DNA of 42,564 bases, taken from positions 1-42,564 of the IMG/VR virus record IMGVR_UViG_3300031624_000299. One strand, written 5' to 3'. The position numbers were made by a program, and so were the translations under genes. Below, piece after piece: positions 10,690-27,935 of the stretch. Numbering within the stretch: position 1 is the stretch's first letter; each line of letters starts with the position of its first letter. The notes below the pieces were generated by a model, which saw only the letters and a list, made by a program, of their open reading frames with translations, had not been told where the DNA came from and searched no databases. This stretch comes from a virus.

Positions 10690-12003
10690 TCAGCTCCGCT
10701 TCCAATCGGTGCCGGTGTGTTTCTCCCACTTACCGCCGCCCGCGAGATCGGTGTTGAACCACTCGTCACCGAGGGACGGGTTGGGAATGGCCGTGTCCCG
10801 TTCGGCCTCGGTGCCGACCCCGCGATGGATAGCTTCACGCGCGGTGAGCCCCTGCCCGAGCCGGTCCGATCCTATTATGTCCCGCCAACCGAGAATCGGG
10901 GAGCGGAGTCGGGATACGAAGGTCCGGTAGTAATCGGCGTCCTTGGCAGCCCGGTAAAGGAGGAAAGAGCCGTCGGCGTCGATGATAAGGCAGGGCGTGT
11001 AGCAGCGCTCGAGGAACGGCCCCTGGCCTGCCTGAAACACGGGATTAAAGGCGGCCTTGGTCCAGTGGATACGGTCCCAGGACCAGGAGTAACCGATCCC
11101 CGCGTTTCCGGCCTCGCCGCCGGAATAAAGCATCCACCAGCGGCCGTCGGCCAGGCGCTCCACGTGGCAGGAAGAGACATAGCCGTTCGCCCCCTCCCAA
11201 TCCTGAGAATCGATCAGACCGGAGAGGATCGGCGCGTTTCCATACAGTCGCCAGTCCAACCCGTCGTTCGAATAGCCCAGACCGAGACTGTCGTTGCCGC
11301 CGGTCGAGGCGATGAAGAGCATGGCGTAGCGCCAAGTGAAAGGCTTGCCGGGTGCGGAGGACGGCTCCGGGTTGTACCAGAGGAACGAGGGCCCGTAGTG
11401 GCCTCGGTTCCAGACCGGTTCGCTCCCCTCGGTGACAAGGTCGCCCGTGCAGACGACGTCTTCGGTGAACGCGGACGCGTCGACCTGGGGATCGCAGACC
11501 GCGGTGCGCAGACCGGCCATGGCATAGGGCTGGTTTGGAACGTTCGGGTCCCAGTATAGAATCCGCAGACGATCCGAAGTTTCCAGGGCGCAGACGACAT
11601 GGTAGCCGCCCGCCGCGATGCCCGTGACCTCTTTTTCGTTGTCCCAGTTGATCCCGTCATCGGAGAACGCGCAGCTCATGCCGTCGCCGTCTCCATAGTA
11701 GGCGATGAAATCCCGGAGGGCGGTTCCGTCGTGAAAACCGCCGGGAGCGCGAAGGACGCGGACGTAATAGGCTCTGTCAGCAGCCACGGGCAGCACCTGA
11801 GGATAGTGATGGTCGAAGATGACCGGCGGCAGACCATCGGGCGCTTCCGCGCCGGATGGCACGAGCAAAAGCCCGAGATCGACGGCCCGGACCAGATCCT
11901 CGGTCATCGCGGGAATCGTGGTCGTTTTCCCCGGTCCGAGCGTACCCGGCAGGCTGGGGAGTTCCAGAATGGTGTCGGTGTTGCTTTGAATGGTGATATT
12001 CAT
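10690..12003 (-). CDS. Tail-fibre-like protein with five-bladed beta-propeller glycosidase fold
   Basis: 437 aa, ATG overlapping the previous stop (ATGA) with GAGAGGA before it. Residues 1-55 form a small beta module (LGPGKTTTIPAMTEDLV ... LGLLLVPSG). Residues about 70-385 carry repeated blades of the type CAFSDDGINW, GLGYSNDGLDW and GIGYSWSWDRIHW, the pattern of GH43/GH32/GH130-like five-bladed propellers. The C-terminus has GDEWFNTD and WEKHTGTDW, a short motif common at the ends of phage fibres. It is the last gene of the late operon, where adsorption proteins usually lie. A role in binding or trimming a surface glycan is likely. I cannot assign catalytic residues with confidence, so it may be a lectin-like binder. 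Confidence 0.7.
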   Translation of the reverse strand: MNITIQSNTDTILELPSLPGTLGPGKTTTIPAMTEDLVRAVDLGLLLVPSGAEAPDGLPPVIFDHHYPQVLPVAADRAYYVRVLRAPGGFHDGTALRDFIAYYGDGDGMSCAFSDDGINWDNEKEVTGIAAGGYHVVCALETSDRLRILYWDPNVPNQPYAMAGLRTAVCDPQVDASAFTEDVVCTGDLVTEGSEPVWNRGHYGPSFLWYNPEPSSAPGKPFTWRYAMLFIASTGGNDSLGLGYSNDGLDWRLYGNAPILSGLIDSQDWEGANGYVSSCHVERLADGRWWMLYSGGEAGNAGIGYSWSWDRIHWTKAAFNPVFQAGQGPFLERCYTPCLIIDADGSFLLYRAAKDADYYRTFVSRLRSPILGWRDIIGSDRLGQGLTAREAIHRGVGTEAERDTAIPNPSLGDEWFNTDLAGGGKWEKHTGTDWKRS

Positions 12004-12278
12004 GATTCAATCCTCTCTTCGTGATTCACCCCGGCGACGATCATCTTCTCGTTGATGCGCAGTGCTTCGGCTTCTTCTTTGTGAATGCGCGCCATGACCT
12101 TCGAAAAGGCTTCCGCCTCGTTCAGCGGCAAACCGAGCTTCTCCTCGATCCGCTTCAGCCTGGCGTCCAGATTATCGAGCATGCGCAGGGTGTGATCCCG
12201 TAGCATGCCCTCGCGTTTTTCCTGCGGAGAGGGAATGAACTCGGTCAATCCGCCTTGCTGTCGAACTATCATCGCCAT
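12000..12278 (-). CDS. Small coiled-coil protein of the fibre module
   Basis: 92 aa, mostly charged helix (residues 25-80, including LDARLKRIEEKLGLPL). No family is recognised. Two adjacent ATGs are possible; the second (12272) has better spacing from GGAGGG. It sits between the large DUF4815-type protein and the propeller protein, overlapping the latter by 4 bp. The position suggests a fibre chaperone or short trimeric linker, but nothing in the sequence proves it. Confidence 0.6.
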   Translation of the reverse strand: MAMIVRQQGGLTEFIPSPQEKREGMLRDHTLRMLDNLDARLKRIEEKLGLPLNEAEAFSKVMARIHKEEAEALRINEKMIVAGVNHEERIES

Positions 12279-12285: not shown

Positions 12286-15200
12286 TCAACTCAGCGTCGC
12301 GCCGAGGGTGTGAATGCGCGGATAGACCAGGTTGTTGCCGGTCATCTCCGCCTTGTAACGCACCTTGGTGCCGCTTGGATCGGCGAAGGTCCGGGTGAGC
12401 GTGTACTCGGTCCATTCCTGGTCGATCTCGCGCGTCGTTTCGATGGACATGGGTTCCCAGGTCGCTCCGGCGTTATTGGAGGCGAACCAATTGATGGTGG
12501 TTCCGCTGGGGATGTTCATCTGGGTATAAAGTTTGGTGGAGGAAACGCCCTGGGTGAGCTCGTTCTCGCGATTGAGGTATGCACCCGTCGTGTTGTTGAG
12601 ATATCCGATGAGGTTTACATCCTTGTAGATCAACGCCGGAGAGTCGTTGACGGCGTTGCTGGAGAAAAGAGCCCGCACCAGTACTTGACTTGCCAGGTTG
12701 GGGAGCCGCTCCTCCTCCGCGGGCACGATGGCGTCCCAGATGACACCGCCGTCGGTGGAGTACTCCCAAGCGATGCCGGTACCTTCAGGGCTGGAGGAAT
12801 ACTCGTCAAGGTTCAGATCGCTGAACTGCACGCCGGTAATGGGTTGGAAGCGAACCTCACCGGCCGACTGGAAGTCGTAACCGTAGATTTTCATGGTGAG
12901 ATCGGAACCGTTGAGCGGTGTCCAGGTCTCGGCGTTGGAGCTTTCCAGCAGCACGCCGGCGACATAGGTCTGCTGGGTGATCACACCGTTCTGCCCGAGT
13001 TGGCCCAGGGTTGCGACGCGCATGCGGTAGTTGCTGCTGTTGGTAAGCAGCACGACGGCATAGCTGGTTCCGGCCTGAGCGTAGAAGGGATTGGCGAAGA
13101 CGACCTTGGTTTCGGCGTTCAGATTCACGTCGCCTGGGGCCAGGACCTTTTCCGCGAAAATCGTGCCGTTGGGCAGACCTGTCGTGACGCCACGGATCTG
13201 GACCGTGACCGGGATGGATGGGTCCTTGGCGGTGAAATACAATCCCACACTGGAGGTCACCTTGTCCTGGGTGAAGCTGAAGGTTTGGGCCAGAGGATCG
13301 CTACGCACGGTGACGATTTGAGTGCGCCAGACCACCTGCACCACAGGCACGCGGATGATGCGCTCCTCGACGATGCGCTCAATGCGGGTGATGACCATAG
13401 GGTCGTTGATCTGCAGGCTGGCCCGGGCCGAGTATAGGCCGTCGTTCATTTCCACGATGCGGTTTCCGTTGCGCACGTTCTCGGGGATGACGAAGGACGC
13501 GGTCACGCGGCCCGCCGTATCCGCATGGACACCCGAAGCCACCACCTGGCCGTCACAGCGGATGGTCACGTTGTTCGCGTTGGACTGGAAATTGGACCCG
13601 ACCACGGCGATTCCGGTCTGGCCGCGCCTGCCGATGTTCGGCGTGATCTCCACCGATGCGTCCGGTTTCTCGAACACGGCATAGGGATTGATGTTCTTGA
13701 CCTCGGACCAGTCAGTCTGCTCGATGAGCACACGTTCCGTGGCCGGGAGCAGCGCGAGACTGCCCTTGAACAATGCGTTGCTGGCGGAGGGGTTTACCGC
13801 GAGCACGGTGGCTGCAGCGGCCCTGGCCGGTGCGGCAAAGCGGCGGACCCGGTCGATGCGGGCACTCCACTCGCTGTGATAGATGTCGGACTGGGCGTCG
13901 TTCGAGAAGTCATCGGAATAGACGCCCTTCTTGGTCTGGGCGTCCCGGTTCTGGAGATCGTTGTTCATCTGGAACTGGGCGTCGTTATACTTGAGGTCCT
14001 CGATGTCCTTGATGATCTCGTGGATCTGGTCCATGGTGATACGGGTCAGCCCGAAGTTGAGCACCGTCATCGCCACCGAGTCGGGCGGGCAGTCAACGCT
14101 GCACAGTCCGAGCGTGCCTTCCGGGACGATGGGCAATTTCGGCCGGTCCGCCGGAGCGCCTTCCAACCGTTTGATCTCGCCGGTAGTGGCGTAGATGATG
14201 TCTTTGCGGCCCAAGTAATAGTCGTAATCGACGCTACAGTTCGAGCTGTCCACCGGGTCGTCACCGAGCCCGGTCCGACCGAAGTTGATGAGGCTCAGGC
14301 CTGCAGGGAGGATTTGCGCCGCCGACATAGTCAAACCGCTGGTGTTGGTAGCGGGTGGGTTGCCGCCGATGACCTCGTCAACGCCATCATCCATGTAGGA
14401 TGTCACGCCCGCGCCGACCTGTTTGAGCCTCTGGAAGTCGGCGCGGTCGGTGTTCTGTGTGCCGCGGTAAATGCGGTATCCGGTTGCCCCGCTGACTGGC
14501 AACCATGACAGGCGATTGATTTCCCCGGCTAAGGTATTGCGGGATACAACCTGGGCAGCGTCGTAGTGAGTCTCGCCGGTGGCGCTTTGAGCGCTGACCA
14601 GGTAGAAGTACTCATCCGCAGCCGGATGGCCCGATTGTCCGAACCACCCGCCATCCACGTAGTCCGTTCCCTTGATCATCTGCTTGGTGTAGGTCCAACG
14701 GACGGTATAGGTAGTGCCGATGGCGGGCTCATTGCCCGATCCGAGCCAGTCTACGTAGTTTCCGGATTGCTGCCAATCCACGCCCTCTTGGAACACAGTC
14801 GCTCCCTGGCTCACCTCAAGGATGTCCACGACCGGGTTGGGCACCAGCAGGTCCTCGCCACCACCCACCGAACCGCGGGTGATGTTCGAAACGATCTCGA
14901 CGATAGCCTCGACCTGGGTAGTTTCCTTGAGGGGCGTGCTGTTGAGCGCATAGCGTCGAGTGCCGATGTTGTAGGTCTTCTGCTCACCGCGCACCGATTT
15001 GGTGGCGACCGACTTAGGAACCATGGTTGTCGTCGGCAGGTCCTTCTGCAGCCGGAAACCTTGGATGTATGCGCGCCCGGCGTTGGTGATCACCTCAACG
15101 TTGTCCCCGTCGTTATCGCCGATGAAACTGTCGAGCCCCTTGACCAGGTAGCTGCCGGCCTGGTCGAAGGTACGCTCGGCCAGGTTCTGAAGCAGCGAGT

Positions 15201-15834
15201 TCAAGCCCTCCGCCGCGGCGAAGGCGAGCTGGTCCTCCGTGATGGAGGAGACCGTGATGCGGCTGCCGGGCAGCGTTCCCAGGAGGTCCCGCAGAAAGAG
15301 GTTGGATTTCTCCTGGACCGTGGCGGTCACATCGCCGGTCTTGCGGTCGAACTTGTAGACCGGGACGACCTTCCGCTCGGTCACGTTGTTGGGCAGCGTC
15401 TCGCCGCTGGTGTCGTGGTCCTTGAGCGCCAGGACCCATTTCTCCCGCTCGGCGGTGGGCTCGCCCGTGGCCGGATTGATGAGCGCGGCGTCCTGGTTGT
15501 AGCCGTAGTTGTATTTGAGCAGCTCGACGTAAACGTAGTCCGCGCCGGAGGTCTTGGCTGGATCGTAGGTCAACACCGCGCCGGGGACCTGCTCGATGTA
15601 TCCTCCGACATAGACGAAGCCCTCGGCTACGGTCAGCACGTTGTCGTTGACCGTGACTCCGAGCCCGCTGATCACCGCGCCCTCTTTGAAGAGCATGTCG
15701 GCGATTTTCTTCCGCTCGTGGTTGATGATGTCCTGCTGCTCGTTCAACTCCGAGTCGAGCAGGTCGCGGTCCTGATGGTAACGGACGCGCTTGTAGTTTT
15801 TTGCCGGATCGAATGTTTCGCGCGAGATGGACAT
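12286..15834 (-). CDS. Large DUF4815-type tail/baseplate fibre protein
   Basis: 1182 aa with AGGAG before the ATG. The N-terminus (MSISRETFDPAKNYKRV, then a HQDRDLLDSELNEQQ helix and KEGAVISGLGV) is the DUF4815 signature found in large phage and contractile-system tail proteins. Around 400-490 there is a fibronectin-III-like or carbohydrate-binding style segment (YFYLVSAQSATGETHYD ... GYRIYRGT). Residues about 715-795 look like an IPT/TIG immunoglobulin domain (GIAVVGSNFQSNANNVTI). The C-terminal third is more beta sandwich, including WEYSTDGGVIWDAI and INWFASNNAGATWEPM. It likely bridges the baseplate to the receptor-binding fibres. It is the longest structural gene after the methylase fusion. 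Confidence 0.8.
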   Translation of the reverse strand: MSISRETFDPAKNYKRVRYHQDRDLLDSELNEQQDIINHERKKIADMLFKEGAVISGLGVTVNDNVLTVAEGFVYVGGYIEQVPGAVLTYDPAKTSGADYVYVELLKYNYGYNQDAALINPATGEPTAEREKWVLALKDHDTSGETLPNNVTERKVVPVYKFDRKTGDVTATVQEKSNLFLRDLLGTLPGSRITVSSITEDQLAFAAAEGLNSLLQNLAERTFDQAGSYLVKGLDSFIGDNDGDNVEVITNAGRAYIQGFRLQKDLPTTTMVPKSVATKSVRGEQKTYNIGTRRYALNSTPLKETTQVEAIVEIVSNITRGSVGGGEDLLVPNPVVDILEVSQGATVFQEGVDWQQSGNYVDWLGSGNEPAIGTTYTVRWTYTKQMIKGTDYVDGGWFGQSGHPAADEYFYLVSAQSATGETHYDAAQVVSRNTLAGEINRLSWLPVSGATGYRIYRGTQNTDRADFQRLKQVGAGVTSYMDDGVDEVIGGNPPATNTSGLTMSAAQILPAGLSLINFGRTGLGDDPVDSSNCSVDYDYYLGRKDIIYATTGEIKRLEGAPADRPKLPIVPEGTLGLCSVDCPPDSVAMTVLNFGLTRITMDQIHEIIKDIEDLKYNDAQFQMNNDLQNRDAQTKKGVYSDDFSNDAQSDIYHSEWSARIDRVRRFAAPARAAAATVLAVNPSASNALFKGSLALLPATERVLIEQTDWSEVKNINPYAVFEKPDASVEITPNIGRRGQTGIAVVGSNFQSNANNVTIRCDGQVVASGVHADTAGRVTASFVIPENVRNGNRIVEMNDGLYSARASLQINDPMVITRIERIVEERIIRVPVVQVVWRTQIVTVRSDPLAQTFSFTQDKVTSSVGLYFTAKDPSIPVTVQIRGVTTGLPNGTIFAEKVLAPGDVNLNAETKVVFANPFYAQAGTSYAVVLLTNSSNYRMRVATLGQLGQNGVITQQTYVAGVLLESSNAETWTPLNGSDLTMKIYGYDFQSAGEVRFQPITGVQFSDLNLDEYSSSPEGTGIAWEYSTDGGVIWDAIVPAEEERLPNLASQVLVRALFSSNAVNDSPALIYKDVNLIGYLNNTTGAYLNRENELTQGVSSTKLYTQMNIPSGTTINWFASNNAGATWEPMSIETTREIDQEWTEYTLTRTFADPSGTKVRYKAEMTGNNLVYPRIHTLGATLS

Positions 15835-15845: not shown

Positions 15846-16379
15846 CTATATCTTGATGACCCCGACGAGTTCCACCCGCGTATCAGAGGTCTTGTTGAAG
15901 TCGGGGATGTTTTTCACTTCGTACAGGTATCCAGGCGTCAGCACCTCGCCGGTCGGATTGGTGTCCGGGTGGTAGATGCCGTTGGCCGCGTAATCGGACT
16001 GGAGACCGTCGATGTACGCCACATCACCGCCGAAGAAACCGTATTCCCGGATGGTGATGCCGTTGGCCTCGCTTTCCTCGAAACGGAAGAAGACGCCGAT
16101 GGTCTGGGTTTCCTCGGCGGTCTCGATGTAGTGAATGCCGTTGACGATGAGCGTCCCTTCCGGGTCCTCCTTGAGAAAGGTGCGCTTGTAGTGCTTCTTT
16201 CTGGCCCTTTCATTCTTGAGCGCGGTCTGGTCGATCTCCGGTGCCGGCGGGTTTAACGGGTCGGTGAACGTGGCGTCGCCATCACCGATGGCGCAGTGAG
16301 TGATGCCCTCGATGGGATCGCCCATGAGCAACCTCGCGGTGAGGATACGTCCGGTTTTGACTATCAGGCCCAATGACAT
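15846..16379 (-). CDS. Baseplate/tail-collar-like fibre attachment protein
   Basis: 177 aa with AAGGAGG seven bases before the ATG. The N-terminus (GRILTARLLMGDPIEGITHCAIGDGD) resembles the first domain of gpH/gp37-type tail fibres and their baseplate adaptors, where a conserved IGDGD-type turn follows the first helix. The middle holds FFRFEESEANGITIREYGFFGGD, also typical of such adaptors. It is directly upstream of the DUF4815 protein and after the variable mid-operon genes, which fits a link between baseplate and fibre. Exact family is uncertain. Confidence 0.65.
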   Translation of the reverse strand: MSLGLIVKTGRILTARLLMGDPIEGITHCAIGDGDATFTDPLNPPAPEIDQTALKNERARKKHYKRTFLKEDPEGTLIVNGIHYIETAEETQTIGVFFRFEESEANGITIREYGFFGGDVAYIDGLQSDYAANGIYHPDTNPTGEVLTPGYLYEVKNIPDFNKTSDTRVELVGVIKI

Positions 16380-16392: not shown

Positions 16393-16854
16393 TCAGGTCT
16401 GGATCACGTGGCTCTCGTTGATCAGCACGGCAAAGATGGTCTGTCCGATGTCATAGCTACTCATCAGTTGTCGAAGAACCCGTTGCCCGGTATCCTCATG
16501 TTGTTCCAGTGCGGCGGAAACCGACTGTCGTGTGTCACGGTTGGCCACAATTGGTCGAATCAGCAGTAGGGAGATGTCCGTCTCAGTCTGCGAGAGGCGC
16601 ACAATCCACATGCGGGTATCGAATTCCAACAGCAAGGGATGCACGATCCTGGCTTGTGAGTCGGCCTCGACGGCAAACGGTATCCATACTCGCATGGCAG
16701 CGTCGGCGTAATGTCTCACCGTGCGTATCGAACTTGTCGCTCCGACAGCCTCGAATACAGCCGCCGGAAAAACCGGCCCCTGGGCGCGGTTCATTGGAAC
16801 CGCAAGTCCCGAGTGCGTTTGGAGGGTGAAACGACTACCGCTATGAGTGGCCAC
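16393..16854 (-). CDS. Hypothetical phage protein in the fibre module
   Basis: 153 aa from a GTG at 16854 preceded by GGAAGG; stops close the frame upstream, which fixes the start. Beta-rich N-terminus and a helical second half (QSVSAALEQHEDTGQRVLRQLMSS). No family is recognised. Base composition is near 50% GC by eye, lower than the core tail genes, as for its two upstream neighbours, which suggests the three arrived together as an exchangeable adsorption cassette. Confidence 0.6.
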   Translation of the reverse strand: MATHSGSRFTLQTHSGLAVPMNRAQGPVFPAAVFEAVGATSSIRTVRHYADAAMRVWIPFAVEADSQARIVHPLLLEFDTRMWIVRLSQTETDISLLLIRPIVANRDTRQSVSAALEQHEDTGQRVLRQLMSSYDIGQTIFAVLINESHVIQT

Positions 16855-16972
16855 GTCGCAACCTTCCGCGTATTCGATATGCTATGCCGATCATTCGAGA
16901 TGTCCGGAATTGCGGCACAGCCCGTGCCGCCTTCTTGGTGATCCTCTTCTGGTTTCCTTTTCTGATTGCCAT
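16841..16972 (-). CDS. Small basic protein (43 aa)
   Basis: This short frame fills the gap between two larger genes. It has AAGGAG seven bases before the ATG, inside the last codons of the preceding gene, and it overlaps the next start by 14 bp. The peptide starts MAIRKGNQKRITKKAARAV and is very rich in Arg and Lys (about one third), ending GRLRRGHS. Perfect packing between neighbours and a strong ribosome site support expression. Function is unknown; a nucleic-acid- or capsid-binding role would be a guess. Confidence 0.55.
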   Translation of the reverse strand: MAIRKGNQKRITKKAARAVPQFRTSRMIGIAYRIRGRLRRGHS

Positions 16973-16976
16973 GTTC

Positions 16977-17963
16977 TTACTCCTTCACCGCACACCAACC
17001 AACTCCGGAGATGTTGAATATCCGGTACGTCGTTCCGTCCATGTCGAGCACGTCCTCGGAATCGACGGCCCCGTTGCCGACGGCATAGATTTCGATCAAC
17101 TCACCGCGTAGCTCCTTGTATGTGCTCGAGGTGAGGGCAGCGAGCCACGGGAACATGGTAACCAGGCCGTAACGCATGTCCGGGTCGCACGCGGTGTGAA
17201 GATTGCCGTGCGCCGCTGCGCACGACCCTGTTTGCCCGGACGTGCTGGACCAGCCGTCGAACTTGTTCAGGGCATAGAAGCTTCCCGGTGATTGATACCG
17301 GCCGATGATAACCGGCTGTGGGTCTTGGCCGATCTTCGCGCCAGCTGAGTAAGCATTTGCGACGGTGGCCAGTGTCACCGTGTTGGGAGTCGACACATAA
17401 TCAACCGCCGTCACCTGAACGCGCTCGATGTTGGCATCATCCTTGATAAGGTAGTAGCTATTGATATTGAATAAGGTGGCGTCGTTGACCTGCACGACAA
17501 CGTCGTCTCCAGGAGTGACTGCTGCCTGGGTTATCGCCACCGCTCCCGACCAGAACCTCTTGATCAATCCGCTGTAATGGCCGTAGTAAGTGGCCACCAC
17601 TTTAGTCACGATGAAGACGTGGTCGAGGTCGGCAAAAATCCAGTACAGGAACTGCGAGGCGTCCACTGTCTTGATGTAAGCGTAGCTGCTGTGATACGCT
17701 TCTTTCACACCCACATGGGCGACGGCGTTCCAATAGAGACTCCCTCGAACAGCGATGCGGTCGGTGTTCGTGTCATCGATGAATTGTAGGTAGATGTCTT
17801 CAGCACTGGATTCTCCGTATGACTTCAGAACGTAAAAAGGCTCCGTCTCGGCGGACCCATCATCGTGAAGAGCCCATCCAACGGTATCAACAAGGAAGGT
17901 CATGAGTTTGACCAGCAGGTCTGCTGTATTGTCAGCCATCCCAGAAGTGCTGTGATAAGGCAT
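16977..17963 (-). CDS. Hypothetical tail/fibre structural protein
   Basis: 328 aa, AGGAG before the ATG. The first half has aromatic-rich strands (SQFLYWIFADLDHVFIVTKVVATYYGHYSG). Residues 150-215 contain a repeat type common in phage virion proteins: a strand (VVVQVNDATLFNINSYYLI), then an ERVQVTAVD strand, then TVTLATVANAYSAGAKIG. The protein resembles uncharacterised products that adorn phage baseplates. It is next to a protein with a related motif (17973-18566). Its GC is lower than that of the capsid genes. No enzymatic motif is seen. Confidence 0.65.
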   Translation of the reverse strand: MPYHSTSGMADNTADLLVKLMTFLVDTVGWALHDDGSAETEPFYVLKSYGESSAEDIYLQFIDDTNTDRIAVRGSLYWNAVAHVGVKEAYHSSYAYIKTVDASQFLYWIFADLDHVFIVTKVVATYYGHYSGLIKRFWSGAVAITQAAVTPGDDVVVQVNDATLFNINSYYLIKDDANIERVQVTAVDYVSTPNTVTLATVANAYSAGAKIGQDPQPVIIGRYQSPGSFYALNKFDGWSSTSGQTGSCAAAHGNLHTACDPDMRYGLVTMFPWLAALTSSTYKELRGELIEIYAVGNGAVDSEDVLDMDGTTYRIFNISGVGWCAVKE

Positions 17964-17972
17964 TGTCTTCTC

Positions 17973-18566
17973 CTATAGGACCGGGTTCTCGGTACCCATG
18001 ATGCTCAGCTTCAGGTCAGTCTTGTTTTGAACGGCGGTTCCTGCCGGCACTGTACATCTTCTCCAGAATGAGATGGTGACATCGTGGTTCTTGTCGCCCA
18101 GGTTGAGAGGACCGCCCGGCGATGCCATATCCAGTTCCGCCTGTGTGAGGGCCAGTGCGTACCATGCGGATTCATCGCTACCCGCATTATCCACCGGTTC
18201 GATCACAAGCCCGGTGTAGTCGTATCCCGAGTAGACCGGCGATCCATCTGCACGCGCGGCGGGAGTAGTTCCTCCATAGCCGCGTTCGATGCCAAGCGTC
18301 GTGGTTCCGCCGCCGCTGAGAACGCGCATTTGCTCGTTGTCGATGATGACGATTTCGCCGTCAGTGAAGCGCGGTTCGGCCAACTGCAGCGAGGTCTCAC
18401 CTGACGCCAACGGTGAAGCGAGAACGGTCTGTTCGTTCGCGAGGAAGAGTTCCTTGTCCTTCGACTCCCCGTCGGTTCCGTTGTAGGTGTCGTCGTCCGG
18501 GTTCGAGAGGTCGCCTTCGGATATCTGCTGCGTCAAAGCGCTGTCTTCAAACAAGTGGATCGCCAT
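17973..18566 (-). CDS. Hypothetical tail/fibre structural protein with phage surface motif
   Basis: 197 aa with AGGAGG five bases before the ATG. Residues 50-112 follow a pattern frequent in phage virion proteins: SGETSLQLAEPRF, DGEIVIIDNEQMRVL, then GIERGYGGTTPAARADGSPV. The second half, FWRRCTVPAGTAVQNKTDLKL, is beta-rich. It likely forms a beta-sandwich appended to the baseplate. Exact role is not assignable. Confidence 0.65.
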   Translation of the reverse strand: MAIHLFEDSALTQQISEGDLSNPDDDTYNGTDGESKDKELFLANEQTVLASPLASGETSLQLAEPRFTDGEIVIIDNEQMRVLSGGGTTTLGIERGYGGTTPAARADGSPVYSGYDYTGLVIEPVDNAGSDESAWYALALTQAELDMASPGGPLNLGDKNHDVTISFWRRCTVPAGTAVQNKTDLKLSIMGTENPVL

Positions 18567-18575
18567 TTATTCCTC

Positions 18576-20147
18576 CTATGGCACGGGCCACTGGGTGACC
18601 GTGTATTGATTGGCCGCCGCTTCGAAACCGGCCTGCGCTTCCGCATGGTCGTCTTTCTGCCGGAAAAGCCACCGCAGTGACGGCTTGGAGATGCGGAAAC
18701 CGGCGGCGTTGAGCGGCATGAGTCCCAACCGCATGGGCCGGGTCCGGTCTACGGACAGCCGCAGTCCCGTGTAGTTGAGCCTGCGGTTGTTGAGCAGCAG
18801 TGTTTCCACGCGATGGCGTCTGGGAATTCCGGTATCCACGGTCAGTTCAAACGAGGCTCGCGCTTCGGTGACGTACGCATCAGTGAGTTCGGTGATGTTG
18901 AGCGGTCTGCTGTTGAGAGCGAAACCGGCCCTTCGTGCTCGCCAATGGTCCACGACATTCCAGGCCCCGCTAACTTCCGACCACTCCGCATCGGCGTAGG
19001 CTATGATGATGAGATGCCGATTGATAGCCGCGCCGGAAATCTTGTCCATGCCATTGACGTGTGAATGACCTACCCTGAGCCACCGGTCAGGCCGGGAACG
19101 ATGGCTGTAACAATGGGTGCGCCTGTCGCCAGTGATTTCTGAAGCCGGTTGATCGGCCTCCGACAGCAGGTCCTTCTGCCTGAATATGACCCTGCAGGCG
19201 GTCGCGGAGCGGTTGAGACGGGAACGGTTCAGGTCTTGGCCGGCGAGTCTGATGAAGGCGTCGACCGGTGGTTCCGACGGTTTGGTGTCGATCTCGCAAC
19301 AGAACGCGGCCCGGCGTTCGCTCACCCAAAGATTGGGCAGCCGCTCATCGTTGAGGCTTCCAACGTTCAACCGGAATCGCGGTGTGCGGCCGTGCCATCG
19401 GGAAATACATACCGCGGCATGTTCCACGTCCTGCATCAACGTGGTGCCATCAGTAATCCGCCACCAGCCCCAGGTCTTGTTTTTGCGTGTCAGGTGATAA
19501 TCGGTGTTCAGCGCGTTGTGGCTGACCACGAAGGTCTCGTGCAGGTGCCCGAGGCAGACCCTCTCGACCACTTCCTTGATGACTGTTTGGAAATCCGATT
19601 CCATGGACAGGAGCGAGTAGAGCCATTGGAGAAAGAAGGACTTGGTTCCTGCGGGATGGTGAAAGACCAGCCCGGGACGGATTCCCTGGATGATGTTGTC
19701 GCTATCGATGCGATAAACGCCCAAGCTGTAGATCAATCCGGGCAGCTTGGCCCGCCCCACAATAGACCTGCGGTTGAGGCGCAGCGCCTTGCGGAAGGTC
19801 TCGTCGATCCGCCCCTGCCACCCCAGGTCGGTAAGCGAGCGCCCGATGGCCGGGATGGTCGCCTTGCGCCGGTAGATTTCGACGGCCTCGCGAATCAGCC
19901 GCCGTTGCCTCGCGGCGTCGGAAAGCGGATCGAAACGGTGCCCCACGATCTCGCCGAGGAGAGGAAGAAATCGATCTTCGCACCGGTCGATATCGAAAAT
20001 TTCGGGGAACCGGTCGGCCAGAAGCTTGAGTTCGTCCAGACTCGCGGCCGGAACTCTGAGTAATGTCTCCAGGTCCCCGGTCTCGTCACGCTCCCGATAG
20101 AGGGGCGGAAGAAGATCGATGAGTTTCTTCTCGAAATAGGACGGCAT
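18576..20147 (-). CDS. Tail protein I-like baseplate protein
   Basis: 523 aa. The ATG shares one base with the gpJ-like stop (TGATG) and has AGGAGAG upstream. Residues 1-135 match the P2 gpI-like/phage tail domain: YFEKKLIDLLPPLYRERDE, then FPEIFDIDRCEDRFLPLLGE and YRRKATIPAIGRSLTDLG. This is the usual partner of gpJ at the baseplate edge. The rest has several repeats of RxRxRLNxxxLNxxRLP type strands (GFALNSRPLNITEL, ETLLLNNRRLNYTGL, GLMPLNAAGF), unlike the 180-aa P2 protein, so it is a gpI domain extended by a repeat-containing arm that may hold the fibres. Confidence 0.8.
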   Translation of the reverse strand: MPSYFEKKLIDLLPPLYRERDETGDLETLLRVPAASLDELKLLADRFPEIFDIDRCEDRFLPLLGEIVGHRFDPLSDAARQRRLIREAVEIYRRKATIPAIGRSLTDLGWQGRIDETFRKALRLNRRSIVGRAKLPGLIYSLGVYRIDSDNIIQGIRPGLVFHHPAGTKSFFLQWLYSLLSMESDFQTVIKEVVERVCLGHLHETFVVSHNALNTDYHLTRKNKTWGWWRITDGTTLMQDVEHAAVCISRWHGRTPRFRLNVGSLNDERLPNLWVSERRAAFCCEIDTKPSEPPVDAFIRLAGQDLNRSRLNRSATACRVIFRQKDLLSEADQPASEITGDRRTHCYSHRSRPDRWLRVGHSHVNGMDKISGAAINRHLIIIAYADAEWSEVSGAWNVVDHWRARRAGFALNSRPLNITELTDAYVTEARASFELTVDTGIPRRHRVETLLLNNRRLNYTGLRLSVDRTRPMRLGLMPLNAAGFRISKPSLRWLFRQKDDHAEAQAGFEAAANQYTVTQWPVP

Positions 20148-21556
20148 CAGGATGCTCTCCTGATGTCGAGGTTCACCTGGCCGAGGACGGCGATCTCACC
20201 GGGCCTGATATCGATGTCCTGCTGCGGGGTGTACATCTGCACGTGGCTTACGCCCCGCACGCCGTCAAGCGCGGCCACCAGGTCTGAGAACCGCACCGGA
20301 ACACCGAATGCCATCCGCTCGAAGGCGAAAAGGTCATCAAGAGCCTGCTCGGTTCGGCTTCGGATAAGGTCGAGATCTTCACCCACATAGGCGTAAACCT
20401 CGGCATCCACATCCACGGAGCGATAGACCGGATCGAAGAGATTGATTTCGATGGTGATGACCTTGCGCGATTCGAGAAAGGCGGAAAGGTCCTGCTTGAG
20501 AAGCGCCGAGGGCGGGCCGCCTCCGTCGGGGGCGACCGCCAGGCTGACCTGGTAATAGCGGATGTTCTTGCAGTCATTGACGTCGAGAACCTGGGCCTTG
20601 GCCACGCCGGGAAATCCTTCGGCCAGCGCCTGGTAGTCGTCCTTGGTGACGGCTTTCCACAGGGACCGGACTTCGGCCGGAGCCTGCTTGCGGGCGTGTT
20701 CCAGAGATTCTCTGTCCGCGCCGCCAGTCGCCGGGACCGGGTTGGTGACGGTCAAGGAGACCTGTTCGCCGCCCTGGTAGACAGGGCTTAGCAGCTCCGA
20801 GACCAGGTCCGATCCGAGGTTCCCCCCGGCACCCAGGGTTTCGAGGTATGCGACGGTGATTTCGGCACCGGCCGGAGGCACACCTCCGCGCAAGCCGTCG
20901 CCGAAGAAGATGCGGACATGGTCGAGGCCGTCGGTGTCGGTCTGGAAATGATGAGCGTCGCTGTCGCTCTCCTGGAAATGAAGAACCTCCGTCCATTGCT
21001 CGTCCTGGATGGTGATCTTGATGGTTCCATGGGCCACCGCCGTTCCCGATAGGAGAAACGACTGGTTCGGTTCGCCCGTGGCCGTGAAGGTCTCGGTCCT
21101 GCTTTCGCCCTGGCGCGCGCCTGTCTCGACGCTTATCTGTCCCCTTGGGATCGTCGCGTCCGCCGCCGTTTCGAATACGATGTCGCCTTCTTCCAAGCGG
21201 GCTTTGCACGCCGTTCCTTTCGGAATGATCAGATCCGTGTCGAGGGGCGCGGCCAGGGTGAAACGCAGGGAGGTTGAAGCGGCCACCGGGCCGTCGAGCC
21301 GGTAGCTAACCAGCTTGCAGAGGCTGATGACGTTCTGTCGTTGACGGGCGGTGGGCAGGAAAGCCTCGGCCGCCTGGGCGTCGAGGTAGTAGGCGAGCAT
21401 ATCGCCCACCCCGCAGAAGAGCTCCAGCAGGACCACACCGAGATCGGATGCATTGAAATCCGTCCAGCGGTCGGTCAACTGCGGCACCCGCGCCAGCAGC
21501 TCCTGACGCAGGGACTCGTAATCCTTGTTGGTATAGTCGATGCTTGCTCTGCCCAT
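20147..21556 (-). CDS. Baseplate J-like wedge protein
   Basis: 469 aa. The N-terminus DYTNKDYESLRQELLARVPQ with FNASDLGVVLLELFCGVGDMLAYYLDAQA is the well-known gpJ/gp6-like pattern. The C-terminal half has RVFFGDG-like and ETLGAGGN-type motifs (VRIFFGDGLRGGVPP, YLETLGAGGNLGSD), then a SVDVDAEVYAYVG strand set. In contractile tails this protein dimerises around the hub and forms the wedges that trigger sheath contraction. It follows the gp25-like gene after a 64-bp gap with no visible gene and precedes gpI, the classic W-J-I order. Confidence 0.9.
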   Translation of the reverse strand: MGRASIDYTNKDYESLRQELLARVPQLTDRWTDFNASDLGVVLLELFCGVGDMLAYYLDAQAAEAFLPTARQRQNVISLCKLVSYRLDGPVAASTSLRFTLAAPLDTDLIIPKGTACKARLEEGDIVFETAADATIPRGQISVETGARQGESRTETFTATGEPNQSFLLSGTAVAHGTIKITIQDEQWTEVLHFQESDSDAHHFQTDTDGLDHVRIFFGDGLRGGVPPAGAEITVAYLETLGAGGNLGSDLVSELLSPVYQGGEQVSLTVTNPVPATGGADRESLEHARKQAPAEVRSLWKAVTKDDYQALAEGFPGVAKAQVLDVNDCKNIRYYQVSLAVAPDGGGPPSALLKQDLSAFLESRKVITIEINLFDPVYRSVDVDAEVYAYVGEDLDLIRSRTEQALDDLFAFERMAFGVPVRFSDLVAALDGVRGVSHVQMYTPQQDIDIRPGEIAVLGQVNLDIRRAS

Positions 21557-21620
21557 CTCCGGTCATCCGTCGGTTTTCGGTAACAGGGGCCGTCCCCGTA
21601 CAGCCGGGTGGACCCGCTTG

Positions 21621-22076
21621 TTACTTACCGACGGAGGCGCGGAACTGTCGGGGCCGGGATATCTGGCGAGGCTCGCGGTAGAAGGGGTAGACCAGGTTTC
21701 CTTCCACTTGGCTCTGAATGACCCGGTACGAGATACGAACCGGCAGGAGATTGCGGTCGATGTTCTGCGGCGAGTCGTCGAAGGAGACGCCGGTGATGAC
21801 GACCCGTTTTTCCCACCGCTTGACCGCGTCGATCACGTAATGGCGGATCAGCCCTTTCAACACCTCGTCGTTGGCTTCGAACACCAGGTCTTTGAGGCGG
21901 GAGCCGAATTCCGGACGCATGAACCGTTCGCCCGGGCGCGTGCCGAGAATCTGGATGATGCTTTCGTGAATGTGTTCGTGTTCCCTGGATGTGGCCGAGG
22001 AGATCTGGGCTCCGCCCGAGCGTCGCTGGAAACGAAAAGGGAACTTCAGACCTCTGCCGAGAAAGTCCAGACTCAT
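21621..22076 (-). CDS. gp25-like baseplate wedge protein (GpW/gp25 family)
   Basis: 151 aa from ATG 22076, which shares a base with the previous stop and has GAGGAG eight bases upstream; an ATG 9 bp earlier is less well placed. The diagnostic motif is HIHESIIQILGTRPGERFMRPEFGSRLKDLVFE, of which ILGTRPGERFMRPEFGS is the gp25 core. It initiates sheath polymerisation on the baseplate. It lies just before gpJ, as in most contractile-tailed phages. The C-terminus carries a short Arg-rich tail. Confidence 0.92.
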   Translation of the reverse strand: MSLDFLGRGLKFPFRFQRRSGGAQISSATSREHEHIHESIIQILGTRPGERFMRPEFGSRLKDLVFEANDEVLKGLIRHYVIDAVKRWEKRVVITGVSFDDSPQNIDRNLLPVRISYRVIQSQVEGNLVYPFYREPRQISRPRQFRASVGK

Positions 22077-23014
22077 CAGTCGCACTCCTCGCAGATGATC
22101 GTGGACTGATCGTCTTGGCCATCGTCCCCGCCGGCATCGATGCCATCCGGAAAGCGGATGACAAGGTCGAGACCGTTCTCCATGGACAGATGGATCGTTC
22201 CGTCCGCCTCGATGATTCCCTTATGACCGCTCTCCTGCGTCGAGAACCCCTTAGCTCCGCCGGGAACCAGACGCACCGTCACCTTCTCTCCGATACCTTC
22301 GATGCGGATGATGCTCAGGACATCCACGGTGCCTACCGGGTTACCGATCAAGGCCGTCCGATCCCCGTGGGAGACATCCAGGCGGTAACCATCCGGAAGC
22401 TCGACCCGATAGCGGTCTTCCGACTTTTGCACTGGATCGATATCCAGCGGCAATCCTTCAATGCCGACAGCCTCGTGGGTGACTCGGATTGCTTCCGGCT
22501 TCAAGGTTAGTTCCCGGCCGTCAGGCAGGGTTACAATTCCGCCTTTGGCGGGCTCCAGTTCAGTGACTGCACCGTCGGTGCCGATTGCGGTGAGAACCCC
22601 CGCCGGACTGACACGGACCATTACACCATCGGCAAGGGTGAAAAGCCTCCCGCCGTCCGGGAGTTCGCGCACCGAAGTGCCGGCGGGCATGGCCAGGAAG
22701 GGGTGGTAATCCGGCGGTTGCGGTTGATCCACGTTCTGCATGTAATGCTGGGCGCTCTCCGCATGGGCTTCCAAAACCGTTTGCGCCTCGGCTCGCAAGG
22801 CTTCGGATGCCTGGTGGCTCTGCAGAAGGATGTCCTTGATCTCAACCAGGCTGTCTTTGATTTGGAGAAGATACGGGATTCCCTCGTCGCCGTCTGGGCA
22901 CACCCCGAGACCTGACGCGAGGATGCGCACCAGCGCCATGAGTTCGTAATGGGACGGTGACGAACTGGTCTGTTCAATAACCGGTCCGTCATCTCCACCG
23001 TATCCGCCACCCAT
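22076..23014 (-). CDS. Beta-repeat protein of unknown function in the spike/baseplate cluster
   Basis: 312 aa with AAGGAG nine bases before the ATG. Residues 20-95 are helical (YLLQIKDSLVEIKDILLQSHQ, then a heptad helix). Residues 105-310 hold six or so short beta repeats built on a LPDG/DG turn: RELPDGGRLFTLADGVMVRV, VTLPDGRELTLKPEAI, VELPDGYRLDVSHGD, IEADGTIHLSMENGL. This looks like a stacked beta-prism or solenoid fibre with a trimerising helix. The last residues hold a CEECD motif. Between the PAAR tip set and gp25, it may be a central fibre or a spike collar. I recognise no named family. Confidence 0.65.
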   Translation of the reverse strand: MGGGYGGDDGPVIEQTSSSPSHYELMALVRILASGLGVCPDGDEGIPYLLQIKDSLVEIKDILLQSHQASEALRAEAQTVLEAHAESAQHYMQNVDQPQPPDYHPFLAMPAGTSVRELPDGGRLFTLADGVMVRVSPAGVLTAIGTDGAVTELEPAKGGIVTLPDGRELTLKPEAIRVTHEAVGIEGLPLDIDPVQKSEDRYRVELPDGYRLDVSHGDRTALIGNPVGTVDVLSIIRIEGIGEKVTVRLVPGGAKGFSTQESGHKGIIEADGTIHLSMENGLDLVIRFPDGIDAGGDDGQDDQSTIICEECD

Positions 23015-23033
23015 CTGCTAAAACTCCTTCCGC

Positions 23034-23333
23034 TCAATCAAATCCGTATCCGCCACCACCCTGGTCGACAACCTCTACCTGGACATAACGCACGCTGTCG
23101 CGATTATCTGAGTCGTACACCATGATCACTGTCGAACCTGCTTGCCATCCAAGGTTCACCTTCCCATCTCCGTCCACCCAGGCAATACTCGAATCCACGC
23201 TTTCAAACTCCGGATCGCCGGTTGGATCACCGCGAATGGAGAGCGGGATCGTCACACCCCACGAATTGACGGAGACCTTGATGTGCTTTGGAAAAACATC
23301 CCAATAACGCACTTGCAGTTCCTGGCAGACCAT
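23034..23333 (-). CDS. Small Ig-like beta protein next to PAAR
   Basis: 99 aa. Alternating strands (KVSVNSWGVTIPLSIRG, SIAWVDGDGKVNLGWQAGS, SVRYVQVEVVDQ) look like a bacterial Ig-like (BIG2-type) domain, with a Gly-rich end GGGGYGFD. No signal peptide. Position directly after the PAAR tip protein suggests it decorates the spike or binds the host surface on contact. Family is not certain. Confidence 0.6.
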   Translation of the reverse strand: MVCQELQVRYWDVFPKHIKVSVNSWGVTIPLSIRGDPTGDPEFESVDSSIAWVDGDGKVNLGWQAGSTVIMVYDSDNRDSVRYVQVEVVDQGGGGYGFD

Positions 23334-23342
23334 TCATGCACC

Positions 23343-23609
23343 TCAGTTGGTGTTCGTATCCAGGCTGCCGGTTACAATCACCGCGCCACAGGCAGCGACG
23401 TCACCGAGACGGGCATTGGGCATGACTTCAGTGATAGTGTTAAGACTTCCGGTAATGATAGGTGTTACGCCGTGCCCCGGTATCGGGCAGACATGCAGAT
23501 CACCCATGCGCGCTACCGGCCTGCCGTTGACAATGGTCCGTATCGCACCTGTGATGATCATCCCGCCATGCGAGGATACATCTCCCATTCTTGCTTGAGG
23601 TCTTGCCAT
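23343..23609 (-). CDS. PAAR-repeat spike-tip protein
   Basis: 88 aa from ATG 23609, 2 bp after the previous stop; longer frames upstream overlap the membrane protein gene. Three PAAR-type repeats are visible (RMGDVSSHGG, RMGDLHVCPIPGHG, RLGDVAACGA) each followed by ITGS/VTGS strands. His14, Cys41, His46 and Cys74 can bind the zinc or iron at the cone tip. PAAR proteins sharpen the OB-fold spike of contractile tails and type VI secretion systems. The spike gene is three genes upstream. Confidence 0.92.
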   Translation of the reverse strand: MARPQARMGDVSSHGGMIITGAIRTIVNGRPVARMGDLHVCPIPGHGVTPIITGSLNTITEVMPNARLGDVAACGAVIVTGSLDTNTN

Positions 23610-23611
23610 AG

Positions 23612-23983
23612 TCACATCCCTGCAAAAAGATGAACGAGGAAACCCACGATGCCGCCAAACACGCTTCCGAGCGCAAGGACCAGGCCGACCACTTTCCACA
23701 TGGTCTCGATGCCCAGCTTGTTGTTCAGGCCAGCGTATAGATTCTTGATGTCATCAGAATTGCGGCGCAATTCCTCGCGGAGACTCCGGGCCAGGAGTTC
23801 GACGTTTTCCTTGTCGGATTTCTTTTCGATCTCGCGCTCGATCTTCTCGAGTCGCGCCTGGATTTCCCGGCGGTGATCCTCAAGGATGCTGCGAAATTCT
23901 GCTCGCCATGACTCAAAGGTTCGGGCGAGGAGGTGCTCGTTTTGATCCCGTTCGATGGGAAGATCTCGATTTTGCTCATCCAT
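23612..23983 (-). CDS. Coiled-coil protein with a C-terminal membrane segment (holin-like)
   Basis: 123 aa. Residues 20-85 are a strongly charged coiled coil (REIQARLEKIEREIEKK). Residues 95-121 are hydrophobic (MWKVVGLVLALGSVFGGIVG and following). This architecture resembles XhlA/hemolysin-type accessory holin proteins and single-pass phage membrane proteins. It overlaps the glycosyltransferase stop by 8 bp. It may assist lysis, or anchor something at the membrane; one segment only, so not a classical three-pass holin. Confidence 0.65.
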   Translation of the reverse strand: MDEQNRDLPIERDQNEHLLARTFESWRAEFRSILEDHRREIQARLEKIEREIEKKSDKENVELLARSLREELRRNSDDIKNLYAGLNNKLGIETMWKVVGLVLALGSVFGGIVGFLVHLFAGM

Positions 23984-24758
23984 CGGGGTGTCTCCTCTTC
24001 AACGAGAACTTTCCACGAATTTGCAGATCGACCTCGAACTGATCAGCCAGGCCGCGCCTTTCCAGTGCTTCCGAGATGGCTCGTTTGGCGTAGCGCATCT
24101 GTTCTACGCGACGGCTGTTGGACAGGCTCTCTTGGTGGTCGCGATACCGATAGAGCGGCTTCCTGATATGCCTGACCTCGGTGACTTCCGAGAGTCGCAA
24201 GCATAAATCGTAATCCATGGCCATCTCGAATAACGGGTTGATGCCGCCCGCCTGGTCGAACACCGACCGCCGCATTAGCCGAAAATGGAATGTCATGAGA
24301 TCGAGAAGCAGTCGCTCCTTAGAGTATGGAATGCGACAGCGCCGCCCGTATCCCTTGGCTTTTCCATCCTCATCGATCACGACGTAGTCGGTATAGACAA
24401 GGCCCACTTCCGGATGGGCTGCGAGCACTGCGGATGTCTCCTCGAGAACGGTAGGCGCCAGCAAGTCATCACTGTCAACCCAGCCCAGATAAGGGGCGGA
24501 GGATTCGGCGATAGCCGATATCAGGGAGCTCACACGTCCTTTGTGTTCAGCCTCGATCAGTCTAATCCGGTTGTCCTTCTTGGCATAGCCGCGCGCGATA
24601 TCCAATGAGGAGTCGGTCGAGCCGTCGTCCCAGATGACGAGTTCGAAATCTGGGAGGGTTTGAGCCAGTAGGCTTTCGATGGCCTCGGCAAGGAACCGCT
24701 CGCGGTTGTAGACGGTCATTACCAGGGATACCTTGGGTTGAGCAACAGTCTCCGTCAT
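23976..24758 (-). CDS. Family 2 glycosyltransferase within the tail operon
   Basis: 260 aa from ATG 24758, which overlaps the spike-gene stop as ATGA; longer upstream frames are only read-through of the opposite neighbour. The GT-A fold is complete: KVSLVMTVYNRE at 9-20, the nucleotide-binding FELVIWDDGSTDSS around 38-51, the metal-binding WVDSDD at 93-98, and AMDYDLCLRLSE with a downstream YRYRDHQESLS. No signal peptide or membrane segment, so it is cytoplasmic. It should transfer a sugar from a nucleotide-sugar to an acceptor such as a virion protein or cell envelope precursor. Its position between spike and PAAR genes is unusual. Other phage glycosyltransferases modify DNA or O-antigen, so the target is open. 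Confidence 0.88.
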   Translation of the reverse strand: MTETVAQPKVSLVMTVYNRERFLAEAIESLLAQTLPDFELVIWDDGSTDSSLDIARGYAKKDNRIRLIEAEHKGRVSSLISAIAESSAPYLGWVDSDDLLAPTVLEETSAVLAAHPEVGLVYTDYVVIDEDGKAKGYGRRCRIPYSKERLLLDLMTFHFRLMRRSVFDQAGGINPLFEMAMDYDLCLRLSEVTEVRHIRKPLYRYRDHQESLSNSRRVEQMRYAKRAISEALERRGLADQFEVDLQIRGKFSLKRRHPDG

Positions 24759-25804
24759 GTGTTGATCAGCACCTTGTTGGAGGATCGGACGATAATATTT
24801 CCCATGGCCCCATCCATAAGAATTGCGCTTCCCGACTTGTCCGTGGCCTGGATGCGTTCCTGACCGGCGGCGGCATTCATCACGACAAACTGTCCCGCCT
24901 TGTCGGTGAAGCGTATCATCTCGGCCCCGGCAGTCGAATCGATGAGGATTTCCTGGGTACCGCAAAGCCCCCAGACGAACACCTTTTCCCGCCCCTTGGT
25001 GGTGTCGATCAAAATCTTCTGCCAGCGGGCGCGGGTCTTGTCGCAGGATTGGATGTGGATTTTCTCCCTGTCCTTCCAGGCCTCCCAGCGCATGAACTGA
25101 CGACACAGGTCGGTGATCTCGATCCTGGCGTGTTGGTCCATGATGTCGGACCCAATGTCCAGCTGGTCGCCTCGTTCGGCGTCCTTGGTTCCGCGACGAA
25201 GGGCATTGCCGGTTTGAACATCCCGCTTCACTGGGCAATCCATGTGAAGGATCTGTCCGGATCGGTCAATGATCTTGAGGAATTCCTCTCCATCGCGGTC
25301 GTCGAGCACGATGGTATGGCCGGTCTCGGTCTTCAGCAGTACCTTACGGCGTGGACAGTAGTACGGCGGATGTCCATGGTATTTCCTATGCTCCAGGTTG
25401 TCGCGCCGATCGGGCTTATGCTCGACCTTGTCCTGGCAGTCATGACAGGTCGGATCGGAACAGAGGCGCTTCGATTCCTCCGGCTGTTCTCCGGGGTTGC
25501 TCTTGGCCAGCCACACTCCCGACCATATCGGGTATTGAACGTTACCGCCCTCGAATTCAGCCCACACCGATGCGCCTTCCTCGGGAATGAGATACATACC
25601 AATGTCCTCGTTGCCGCCGTAAGGGAAACACGGCCACGCCCAATCGGACAAGTTCTCTTTGCCCTTACCGAGTACGGCCGGGATTTCCAAACGGCAGCGA
25701 CCGAGCCGTTCTGGGTCGTTGTTGTCTCGAATGAAAGCCCGATACTTACCGTACCAGCGGTTCTTGTAGCGCTCCTCGTGTTGTCGGTCCTGGGTTTCGA
25801 TCAA
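24755..25804 (-). CDS. OB-fold baseplate spike protein (gpV/gp5/VgrG-like)
   Basis: 349 aa from a TTG at 25804 with GGAGG seven bases upstream. The N-terminal KYRAFIRDNNDPERLGRCRLEIP ... WPCFPYGGNEDIGMYLIPEEGASVWAEFEGG is the gp5 OB-fold signature. Residues 115-150 hold an unusual Cys cluster (Cys115, 120, 123, 150) likely to bind zinc. From 160 on, repeated strands ILIDSTAGAEMIRFTDKAG, FVVMNAAAGQERIQATDKSG, ILMDGAMGNI form the trimeric beta-helix needle. It sits below the gpD-like hub and above PAAR, puncturing the outer membrane on contraction. Confidence 0.92.
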   Translation of the reverse strand: MIETQDRQHEERYKNRWYGKYRAFIRDNNDPERLGRCRLEIPAVLGKGKENLSDWAWPCFPYGGNEDIGMYLIPEEGASVWAEFEGGNVQYPIWSGVWLAKSNPGEQPEESKRLCSDPTCHDCQDKVEHKPDRRDNLEHRKYHGHPPYYCPRRKVLLKTETGHTIVLDDRDGEEFLKIIDRSGQILHMDCPVKRDVQTGNALRRGTKDAERGDQLDIGSDIMDQHARIEITDLCRQFMRWEAWKDREKIHIQSCDKTRARWQKILIDTTKGREKVFVWGLCGTQEILIDSTAGAEMIRFTDKAGQFVVMNAAAGQERIQATDKSGSAILMDGAMGNIIVRSSNKVLINT

Positions 25805-25819
25805 GAAGGGGCCTCCAGA

Positions 25820-26143
25820 CTACCAGGGTAGGATGCCACGCAGGACCTCACGGACGATTCGAGTTGCAAGACTGTCCGGCTTCTTCTTTTCATCAGCCTT
25901 GGCCACGGCGTACTGAAGTGCATCCTTGGCCGCCGCCGGTAGTGTCGCCTCCTGCGCTGCAACGCCTTCCTTGACTTCCTTTGCACCGAACCGCTCGATC
26001 ACTCCAATCACCGTGTCAAGGGCAGCGGCCCTGGCCCGACCCCAAGCGGTCAGCTTGATGATCGTAATCAAAGTCACGAACAGGGTCGCGATGAGTTCCT
26101 TGTGATCGAGGATGAATGTCAAAATCTGTTCAAGCTGTTGCAT
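25820..26143 (-). CDS. Small membrane protein, holin candidate
   Basis: 107 aa from the ATG at 26143, which has AAGGAG six bases upstream and overlaps the M15 gene by 14 bp; an earlier ATG would overlap it by 50 bp. One hydrophobic segment at 18-36 (ATLFVTLITIIKLTAWG region), then helices ending in KKKPDSLATRIVREVLRG. Together with the adjacent M15 peptidase this looks like a lysis pair in which the membrane protein lets the peptidase reach the wall. The single segment makes the holin call tentative. Confidence 0.6.
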   Translation of the reverse strand: MQQLEQILTFILDHKELIATLFVTLITIIKLTAWGRARAAALDTVIGVIERFGAKEVKEGVAAQEATLPAAAKDALQYAVAKADEKKKPDSLATRIVREVLRGILPW

Positions 26144-26561
26144 GATCGTCTCCTTCTGTTTGCTTGAGTGCTTTAGCAAGTGTCACGTATTTGCCCGCAA
26201 GGTGTCCCCATCGGGCGCGGACCTCACGGACATCGACATGGATGAATCCTTGTTCTGGGTAGACCCCGATTCCACCGTTCCGGAAGGCGTGGACCTGTGT
26301 GGCGAGTTCGCACATACTGGCCACGGAGAGACCTTTAATGACGATATCTGCGGCGTTGCCCAATAGATGCTGACTTCGTGTAGCGCCACCTACCGCCTGG
26401 TTGTGTTCGGGGCACCGGTATCCGCTAGTGATCCGAACCGGGGCAGCGGCGAGATCACGGAGTTCTTGAAGCGCAGCTACAAGGAGCGGATTGACCTCGG
26501 CCCTGCCACAGCACCTACAGGCGAACTCGCTTTTGGAGAAGTTCTTGCTCAAGTCTCCCAT
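26130..26561 (-). CDS. Peptidase M15 family endolysin (D-Ala-D-Ala/L,D-peptidase type)
   Basis: 143 aa. Zinc ligands are clear: SQHLLGNAAD at 63-72 (His65, Asp72) and GFIHVD at 105-110 (His108), with the RITSGYRCPEHN motif before them. This is the Peptidase_M15_3 family, which cuts cross-linked peptides in peptidoglycan. A CRCC motif at 15-18 is common in these proteins. No signal peptide, so it needs a holin or virion mounting. It lies between the hub and the spike genes, so it could instead be a virion-associated peptidase for entry. Confidence 0.9.
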   Translation of the reverse strand: MGDLSKNFSKSEFACRCCGRAEVNPLLVAALQELRDLAAAPVRITSGYRCPEHNQAVGGATRSQHLLGNAADIVIKGLSVASMCELATQVHAFRNGGIGVYPEQGFIHVDVREVRARWGHLAGKYVTLAKALKQTEGDDHATA

Positions 26562-26574
26562 GTTTAGTTGCTCC

Positions 26575-27840: not shown

Positions 27841-27935
27841 GCGCCGGTCTCCAATGGGCCCGCCATTATGGCGAACTTCAACGGATACTTACCGGCGCGC
27901 AGTGCGAGGTGTCGGGATGGAGTAGCCCGGGGGAT

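Follow-up and report, generated by a model that had tools for sequence, protein, structure and literature searches.

Five-bladed beta-propellers are known as receptor-binding proteins of Staphylococcus phages. Gp45 of phi11 (PMC4901313) and the receptor-binding protein (RBP) of 80alpha (PMC7048315) are both described as such, with a fold akin to carbohydrate enzymes and a sugar-sized cavity, modelled for GlcNAc in the case of Gp45; the phi11 paper further mentions PRD1 P2 and phiKZ gp131C. In the DepoScope survey, propellers made up 119 of the 984 depolymerase-fold hits (12.1%; PMC11326577). Since five-bladed propeller receptor-binding proteins exist, a phage propeller fibre is of a known kind, and the expectation in the original prediction for the present locus, that such a fibre would be a less-described adsorption device, holds in part. 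Among enzymes of the same structural group, an invariant Asp/Asp/Glu triad is reported for GH43 (PMC7809346) and an invariant catalytic aspartate, Asp142 in BT3780, for GH130 (PMC4599007).

The gene analysed here lies in a stretch of viral DNA of 42,564 nucleotides, referred to hereafter as the window. It is the last gene of a tail module with the following features:

10690..12003, minus strand: propeller fibre gene, 437 aa, ATG start with the SD-like sequence AGAGAGGA upstream; conserved in 15 loci
11830..12003, minus strand: N-terminal module of the fibre protein, aa 1-58; conservation limited to the close prophage family (alignment A1)
10894..11820, minus strand: five-bladed beta-propeller, approximately aa 62-370, from AlphaFold2 and fold matches
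10750..10770, minus strand: GDEWFNT motif in the C-terminal tail, aa 412-418, read from the sequence
12000..12278, minus strand: 92-aa gene with an ATGA overlap with the fibre gene; possible connector
12286..15834, minus strand: DUF4815 protein, 1182 aa (PF16075, E 1.9e-106), approximately 80-94% identical in relatives
15846..16379, minus strand: baseplate wedge/tail fibre network component, BW3TFN (PF25691, E 2e-08)
16393..38306, minus strand: tail and head module, syntenic in two chromosomes, including the next five genes
18576-20147, minus strand: tail protein I
20147-21556, minus strand: baseplate J
28702-31662, minus strand: tape measure
32975-34831, minus strand: sheath
37443-38306, minus strand: major head protein

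The protein resembles Gp45 and the 80alpha RBP in being a five-bladed propeller in a tail-module protein. Unlike Gp45, described as a trimer of approximately 636 residues with a long helical stem and tower domains (PMC4901313), the window fibre has 437 aa, a short N-terminal module and scant room for a tower.

The fibre ORF is uninterrupted and its ATG overlaps the stop codon of the 92-aa gene (ATGA coupling). Its dN/dS of 0.114-0.151 against five relatives is similar to that of neighbouring genes and indicates that the gene is maintained; it is a genuine gene under purifying selection. Relatives were found at 15 loci in genome contigs with best-segment identities of 71-94%, and a close relative (E < 1e-170) was present in 5 of the 389 genomes of a class-wide sample. 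Protein identity across hosts was 77-84%, conservation being roughly that of the neighbours; because many of the loci are MAG contigs, the host spread of the family is uncertain. As a single sequence the protein gave no Pfam, PHROG or NCBIfam match above cut-off. In tblastn it had no match at E 0.01 in 50,697 phage records, and phages and plasmids together yielded weak matches only, one to an unannotated sequence (E 0.6) and one to a GH130 protein (E 0.2). Two scans of viral contigs with the fibre family as query yielded no relative. Some copies are incomplete: L011 and L014 have frame breaks, L009 is truncated by a contig end, and L013, L015 and L016 are partial copies without DUF4815 upstream. 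The L013 copy, which was included in A1, lacks the first 39 residues, the L016 copy comprises aa 114-253 only, and that of L015 is fused to the start of another frame, presumably serine-recombinase-like; L011, L014, L015 and L016 were excluded from the alignment.

The DUF4815 and 92-aa genes preceded the fibre gene in 12 of the 15 loci, the other three being the partial copies, and the module runs from BW3TFN through DUF4815 and the 92-aa gene to the fibre gene as the last one. Two chromosomes, one of them the complete genome of Desulfosarcina alkanivorans, carry the head-tail genes of positions 10690-42564 in the same order, with identities of 83-84% for the fibre gene, 86% for the sheath and 93-94% for the major head protein. 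The block shared by these chromosomes stops at the fibre gene, except for one weak HTH match, in agreement with the placement of the gene at the end of the late operon in the original prediction. The tail gene block also includes a family 2 glycosyltransferase gene (23976-25238), kept in the two prophages at 58-59% identity, and near the major head gene lies a gene for a protein of 1286 aa that includes a D12-type adenine methyltransferase domain (38704-42564).

Beyond the fibre gene the window carries defence cargo (1664-10257) not shared with the two related prophages: type I restriction and methylation genes (7867-10257 and 5734-7857) and a SIR2 and HerA pair (3870-5321 and 1664-3901). The same spot in other loci held an HmaA/DrmD-like helicase with a DarT-HD protein (L002, 7908-12749), BrxC (L008, 11167-11970), an HmaA/DrmD-like helicase (L012, 10806-13311) or a type I R subunit (L005, 11076-13310). 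The site resembles a hotspot at which prophages carry large defence systems. In several relatives, amidoligase and gamma-glutamyl cyclotransferase genes separate the fibre gene from the defence cargo (L004 7528-8523, L014 9825-10382 and equivalents). This pair, absent from the window, is possibly a peptide or wall modification cassette.

AlphaFold2 run on the full-length protein with A1 (12 similar sequences) gave a model of low confidence (pLDDT 32). The model of aa 50-388, built on the 30-row alignment A7, had a mean pLDDT of 79.0 and a pTM of 0.83, with 262 of 339 residues at 70 or above; its strands form five blades, of which the fifth is probably closed by the N-terminal strand aa 63-66. 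Foldseek and VIA-align placed the model with GH43/GH130 propellers. The top solved match was the GH43 protein 4qqs (Z 24.7, rmsd 2.9, 263 residues aligned), and Z was at least 8 in 842 of the 983 aligned chains. Among the fold matches listed were GH43, GH130 and GH159 enzymes, a GalNAc deacetylase and similar propellers; absence from these matches, as for propeller lyases, does not exclude a family. By hhalign, aa 12-384 aligned in register with GH130 proteins (E 4.4e-08, probability 93). The A7 profile matched solved GH130 enzymes at E 8e-28, which is evidence for the group and not for the fibre protein alone because A7 includes generic propellers; profile A4, built from the close outside kin with the window protein omitted, still matched at 7e-06. 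With GH43, hhalign gave no good global alignment (probability 9), so that the comparison with this family rests on strand starts and the fold match, and local PDB profile matches were left out of the residue mapping because they were offset by whole blades. Neither the window protein nor the 12 sequences of A1 matched any Pfam model at E 10. The gathering score of the GH43 model PF04616 was not reached, nor, for the window protein, that of the GH32 model PF00251. It is near certain that the middle of the fibre protein folds as a five-bladed propeller, one belonging to the GH43/GH130 structural group, as had been called from the sequence alone. Its propeller fold, blade order and repeat motif are shared with GH130 proteins (7fip, 9fj8, BT3780) and GH43 (4qqs).

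The flanking modules had been described beforehand as a phage-type N-terminus and a WFNT-type C-terminus. The former description found no support, as aa 1-58 had no match at E 10 in the 50,697 phage records and no PHROG; a weak similarity (E 0.03) linked the module to the prophage counterpart of the 123-aa gene at 37056-37427, and its role is presumed to be that of an anchor. As for the latter, GDEWFNT is literally present, whereas the tail around it matched one phage record only at E 10 and has no usable relative that would define a WFNT-type module.

For comparison of the pocket with GH43, 14 reference loci were fetched and one partial sequence (L120) was dropped; all 13 remaining proteins had D/D/E where the inner strands of blades 1, 3 and 4 begin, in agreement with the published triad (PMC7809346). 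Sequence alignment of the window clade revealed no conserved Asp or Glu at any of the five inner-strand starts. At the position of the GH130 aspartate, the blade-2 start of the window protein reads GGYHVVC, and acids are missing over a span reaching from six columns ahead of it to five beyond. As no inner-strand start has a conserved Asp or Glu, the GH43 triad and the GH130 aspartate are absent in the alignment, and in this the window protein is unlike the GH130 and GH43 enzymes that share its fold. Of the checks proposed in the original prediction, structure prediction upheld the propeller, while an ordinary glycosidase was rejected on the missing acids. The inner strands carry instead:

11764..11769, minus strand: Tyr79-Tyr80, blade 1, at the position of the GH43 Asp general base
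11599..11601, minus strand: His135, blade 2, close to where GH130 has its catalytic Asp; the register is uncertain by one column (His at 134-135 in the clade)
11395..11406, minus strand: Arg200-Tyr203 (RGHY), blade 3, at the position of the second GH43 Asp
10993..11007, minus strand: Arg333-Cys-Tyr-Thr-Pro337, blade 5, from the alignment

The clade pattern is Arg200-Gly-x-Tyr203-Gly in blade 3 and Arg333-x-Tyr-Thr-Pro in blade 5, with position 200 being Asn in L078 and His in L031. A78, Y79, Y80, G201, Y203, G204, R333, Y335, T336 and P337 were invariant wherever covered in the window protein, L002, L003 and five outside relatives. Strand starts were richer in invariant columns, with 10 of 40 compared with 24 of 273 (p 0.005, for windows chosen after the alignment had been seen). 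The acids flanking the strand starts in the window protein are D76 and E332, which vary in the family, E195, which is unconserved, and E270, which is Asp in relatives. D152 showed no variation in the sequences that cover it, and position 270 holds either Asp or Glu; E332, E270 and D152 may be close to the same face and could act.

The Tyr/Arg/His signature at the strand starts is common to secreted Phycisphaerae proteins. A profile search of the class to which the genome of L008, a Phycisphaerae MAG, belongs identified propellers in 46 of 298 genomes (E up to 0.1). The nearest cellular kin beyond the family itself were secreted proteins with PEP-CTERM-like ends; more distant propellers reached the Pfam cut-offs of GH130, GH32 or GH43. 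Two of the secreted proteins (L042 and L043; 34% and 30% identity over approximately 280 aa) have the same signature and differ in possessing a signal-like start and a PEP-CTERM-like end in place of the phage N- and C-terminal modules. Scanning viral contigs by motif detected 31 stretches, the closest viral kin being L078 (E 1e-43) on a 160-kb contig; a different scan had yielded L071, on a 156-kb contig. These two propellers, from large uncultured viruses, belong to the same clade as the window protein and differ from it in their N-terminal anchors, at approximately 32% identity. In L078, the gene two places beyond the propeller gene encodes a collagen-like tail fibre that matches PHROG tail fibre families and whose start is 61% identical to aa 1-125 of the propeller protein; the intervening protein was 48% identical to aa 1-120; the L071 propeller gene precedes an adjoining collagen-like tail fibre gene. 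The N-terminal module of the window family is a third kind, without match to those of L078 or L071. In a tree rooted by midpoint only, the three virus groups formed one clade (96/91), nested with secreted PEP-CTERM-type proteins (clade support 100/98). That propellers on different anchors adjoin fibres points to a portable adsorption head and agrees with the receptor-binding setting anticipated for the gene. Tandem propeller blades also make up most of an open frame of at least 3985 aa on one 55.7-kb viral contig (L097 1120-13074 and L091 1-5088), with 23 motif matches in L097 and 7 in L091, forming a giant propeller chain.

In the reading we favour, with a probability of roughly 0.55, the protein acts for the contractile-tail prophage as its terminal adsorption protein, a fibre head that binds glycan in a pocket which has been remodelled and is probably non-hydrolytic. 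That it takes part in adsorption as a component of the virion is quite likely, and a non-hydrolytic pocket only slightly less so. The head would descend from the GH43/GH130 group, and the 58-aa N-terminal module together with the 92-aa protein would probably fix the fibre to the baseplate or fibre network. Having lost its catalytic acids, the central pocket would be lined by the conserved Tyr, Arg and His and would bind a surface glycan without hydrolysing it, the conserved arginines making an acidic or phosphorylated glycan the probable ligand. Receptor-binding tips usually vary. The strong conservation of this fibre suggests a general surface polymer rather than a strain-specific receptor, and its similarity to that of the neighbours fits a general co-receptor and an enzyme equally well.

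The same Tyr, Arg and His residues might alternatively act in an active depolymerase working by beta-elimination, Tyr/His providing base and acid and Arg neutralising the uronate as in propeller lyases. The Tyr/His/Arg-lined propeller face of PL24, PL25 and PL42 is a possible analogy, and for PL42 FoRham1 a role has been proposed for His85, His105, Arg166 and Tyr202, located on the front face of its propeller (PMC10951650). However, PL42 has seven blades and the window protein five, and a His-His-Asp triad, described as conserved across PL24, PL25 and PL42 (PMC10951650), contrasts with a single conserved His here. Failing on blade number and triad, a lyase is kept as a bold and improbable alternative. 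Slightly less probable still is a wider scenario in which one propeller lineage exchanged its glycosidase acids for a Tyr/Arg/His centre, was taken by several phages from secreted matrix-type bacterial proteins and now serves as a lyase-like catalytic or uronate-specific adsorption head on unrelated anchors; if true, this would be the first five-bladed propeller lyase as far as known, or else a phage depolymerase of a new class. About as doubtful is a reading in which the protein is a glycoside hydrolase or phosphorylase from the same structural group with its acids on loops instead of strand starts. Fold and distant homology to GH130/GH43, the constancy of D152 and of an acid at position 270, and BT3780, which works though without an obvious classical acid in the account of PMC4599007, speak for such an enzyme, but the GH43 constant residues and the GH130 aspartate are absent by alignment and no Pfam GH model matched at E 10.

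A lysogenic-conversion or host-surface protein at the operon end, outside the virion, would fit the secreted, PEP-CTERM-type nature of the nearest cellular relatives and the cargo downstream in the window and its relatives. We consider it unlikely: a signal peptide is not apparent on reading the sequence, the gene is coupled by ATGA to one that accompanies DUF4815 at 12 of the 15 loci, and the N-terminal anchor of the L078 propeller is also found on a collagen-like tail fibre. A purely structural part of the baseplate or fibre network, with the propeller as scaffold only, would account for conservation equal to that of structural neighbours across hosts; against it, conservation is concentrated at inner-strand starts, unexpected for a mere scaffold. 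This is the most improbable of the readings considered.

To our knowledge of the openly accessible literature, the lineage, the acid-less Tyr/Arg/His signature common to phage and secreted bacterial proteins and the place in this prophage family are new. The fibre would extend propeller-type adsorption proteins to prophages with contractile tails in sulfate reducers and other environmental bacteria, in a lineage far from the staphylococcal phages from which solved propeller heads come. The acid-less pocket common to phage and secreted bacterial proteins leads to the testable prediction that they share a glycan ligand.
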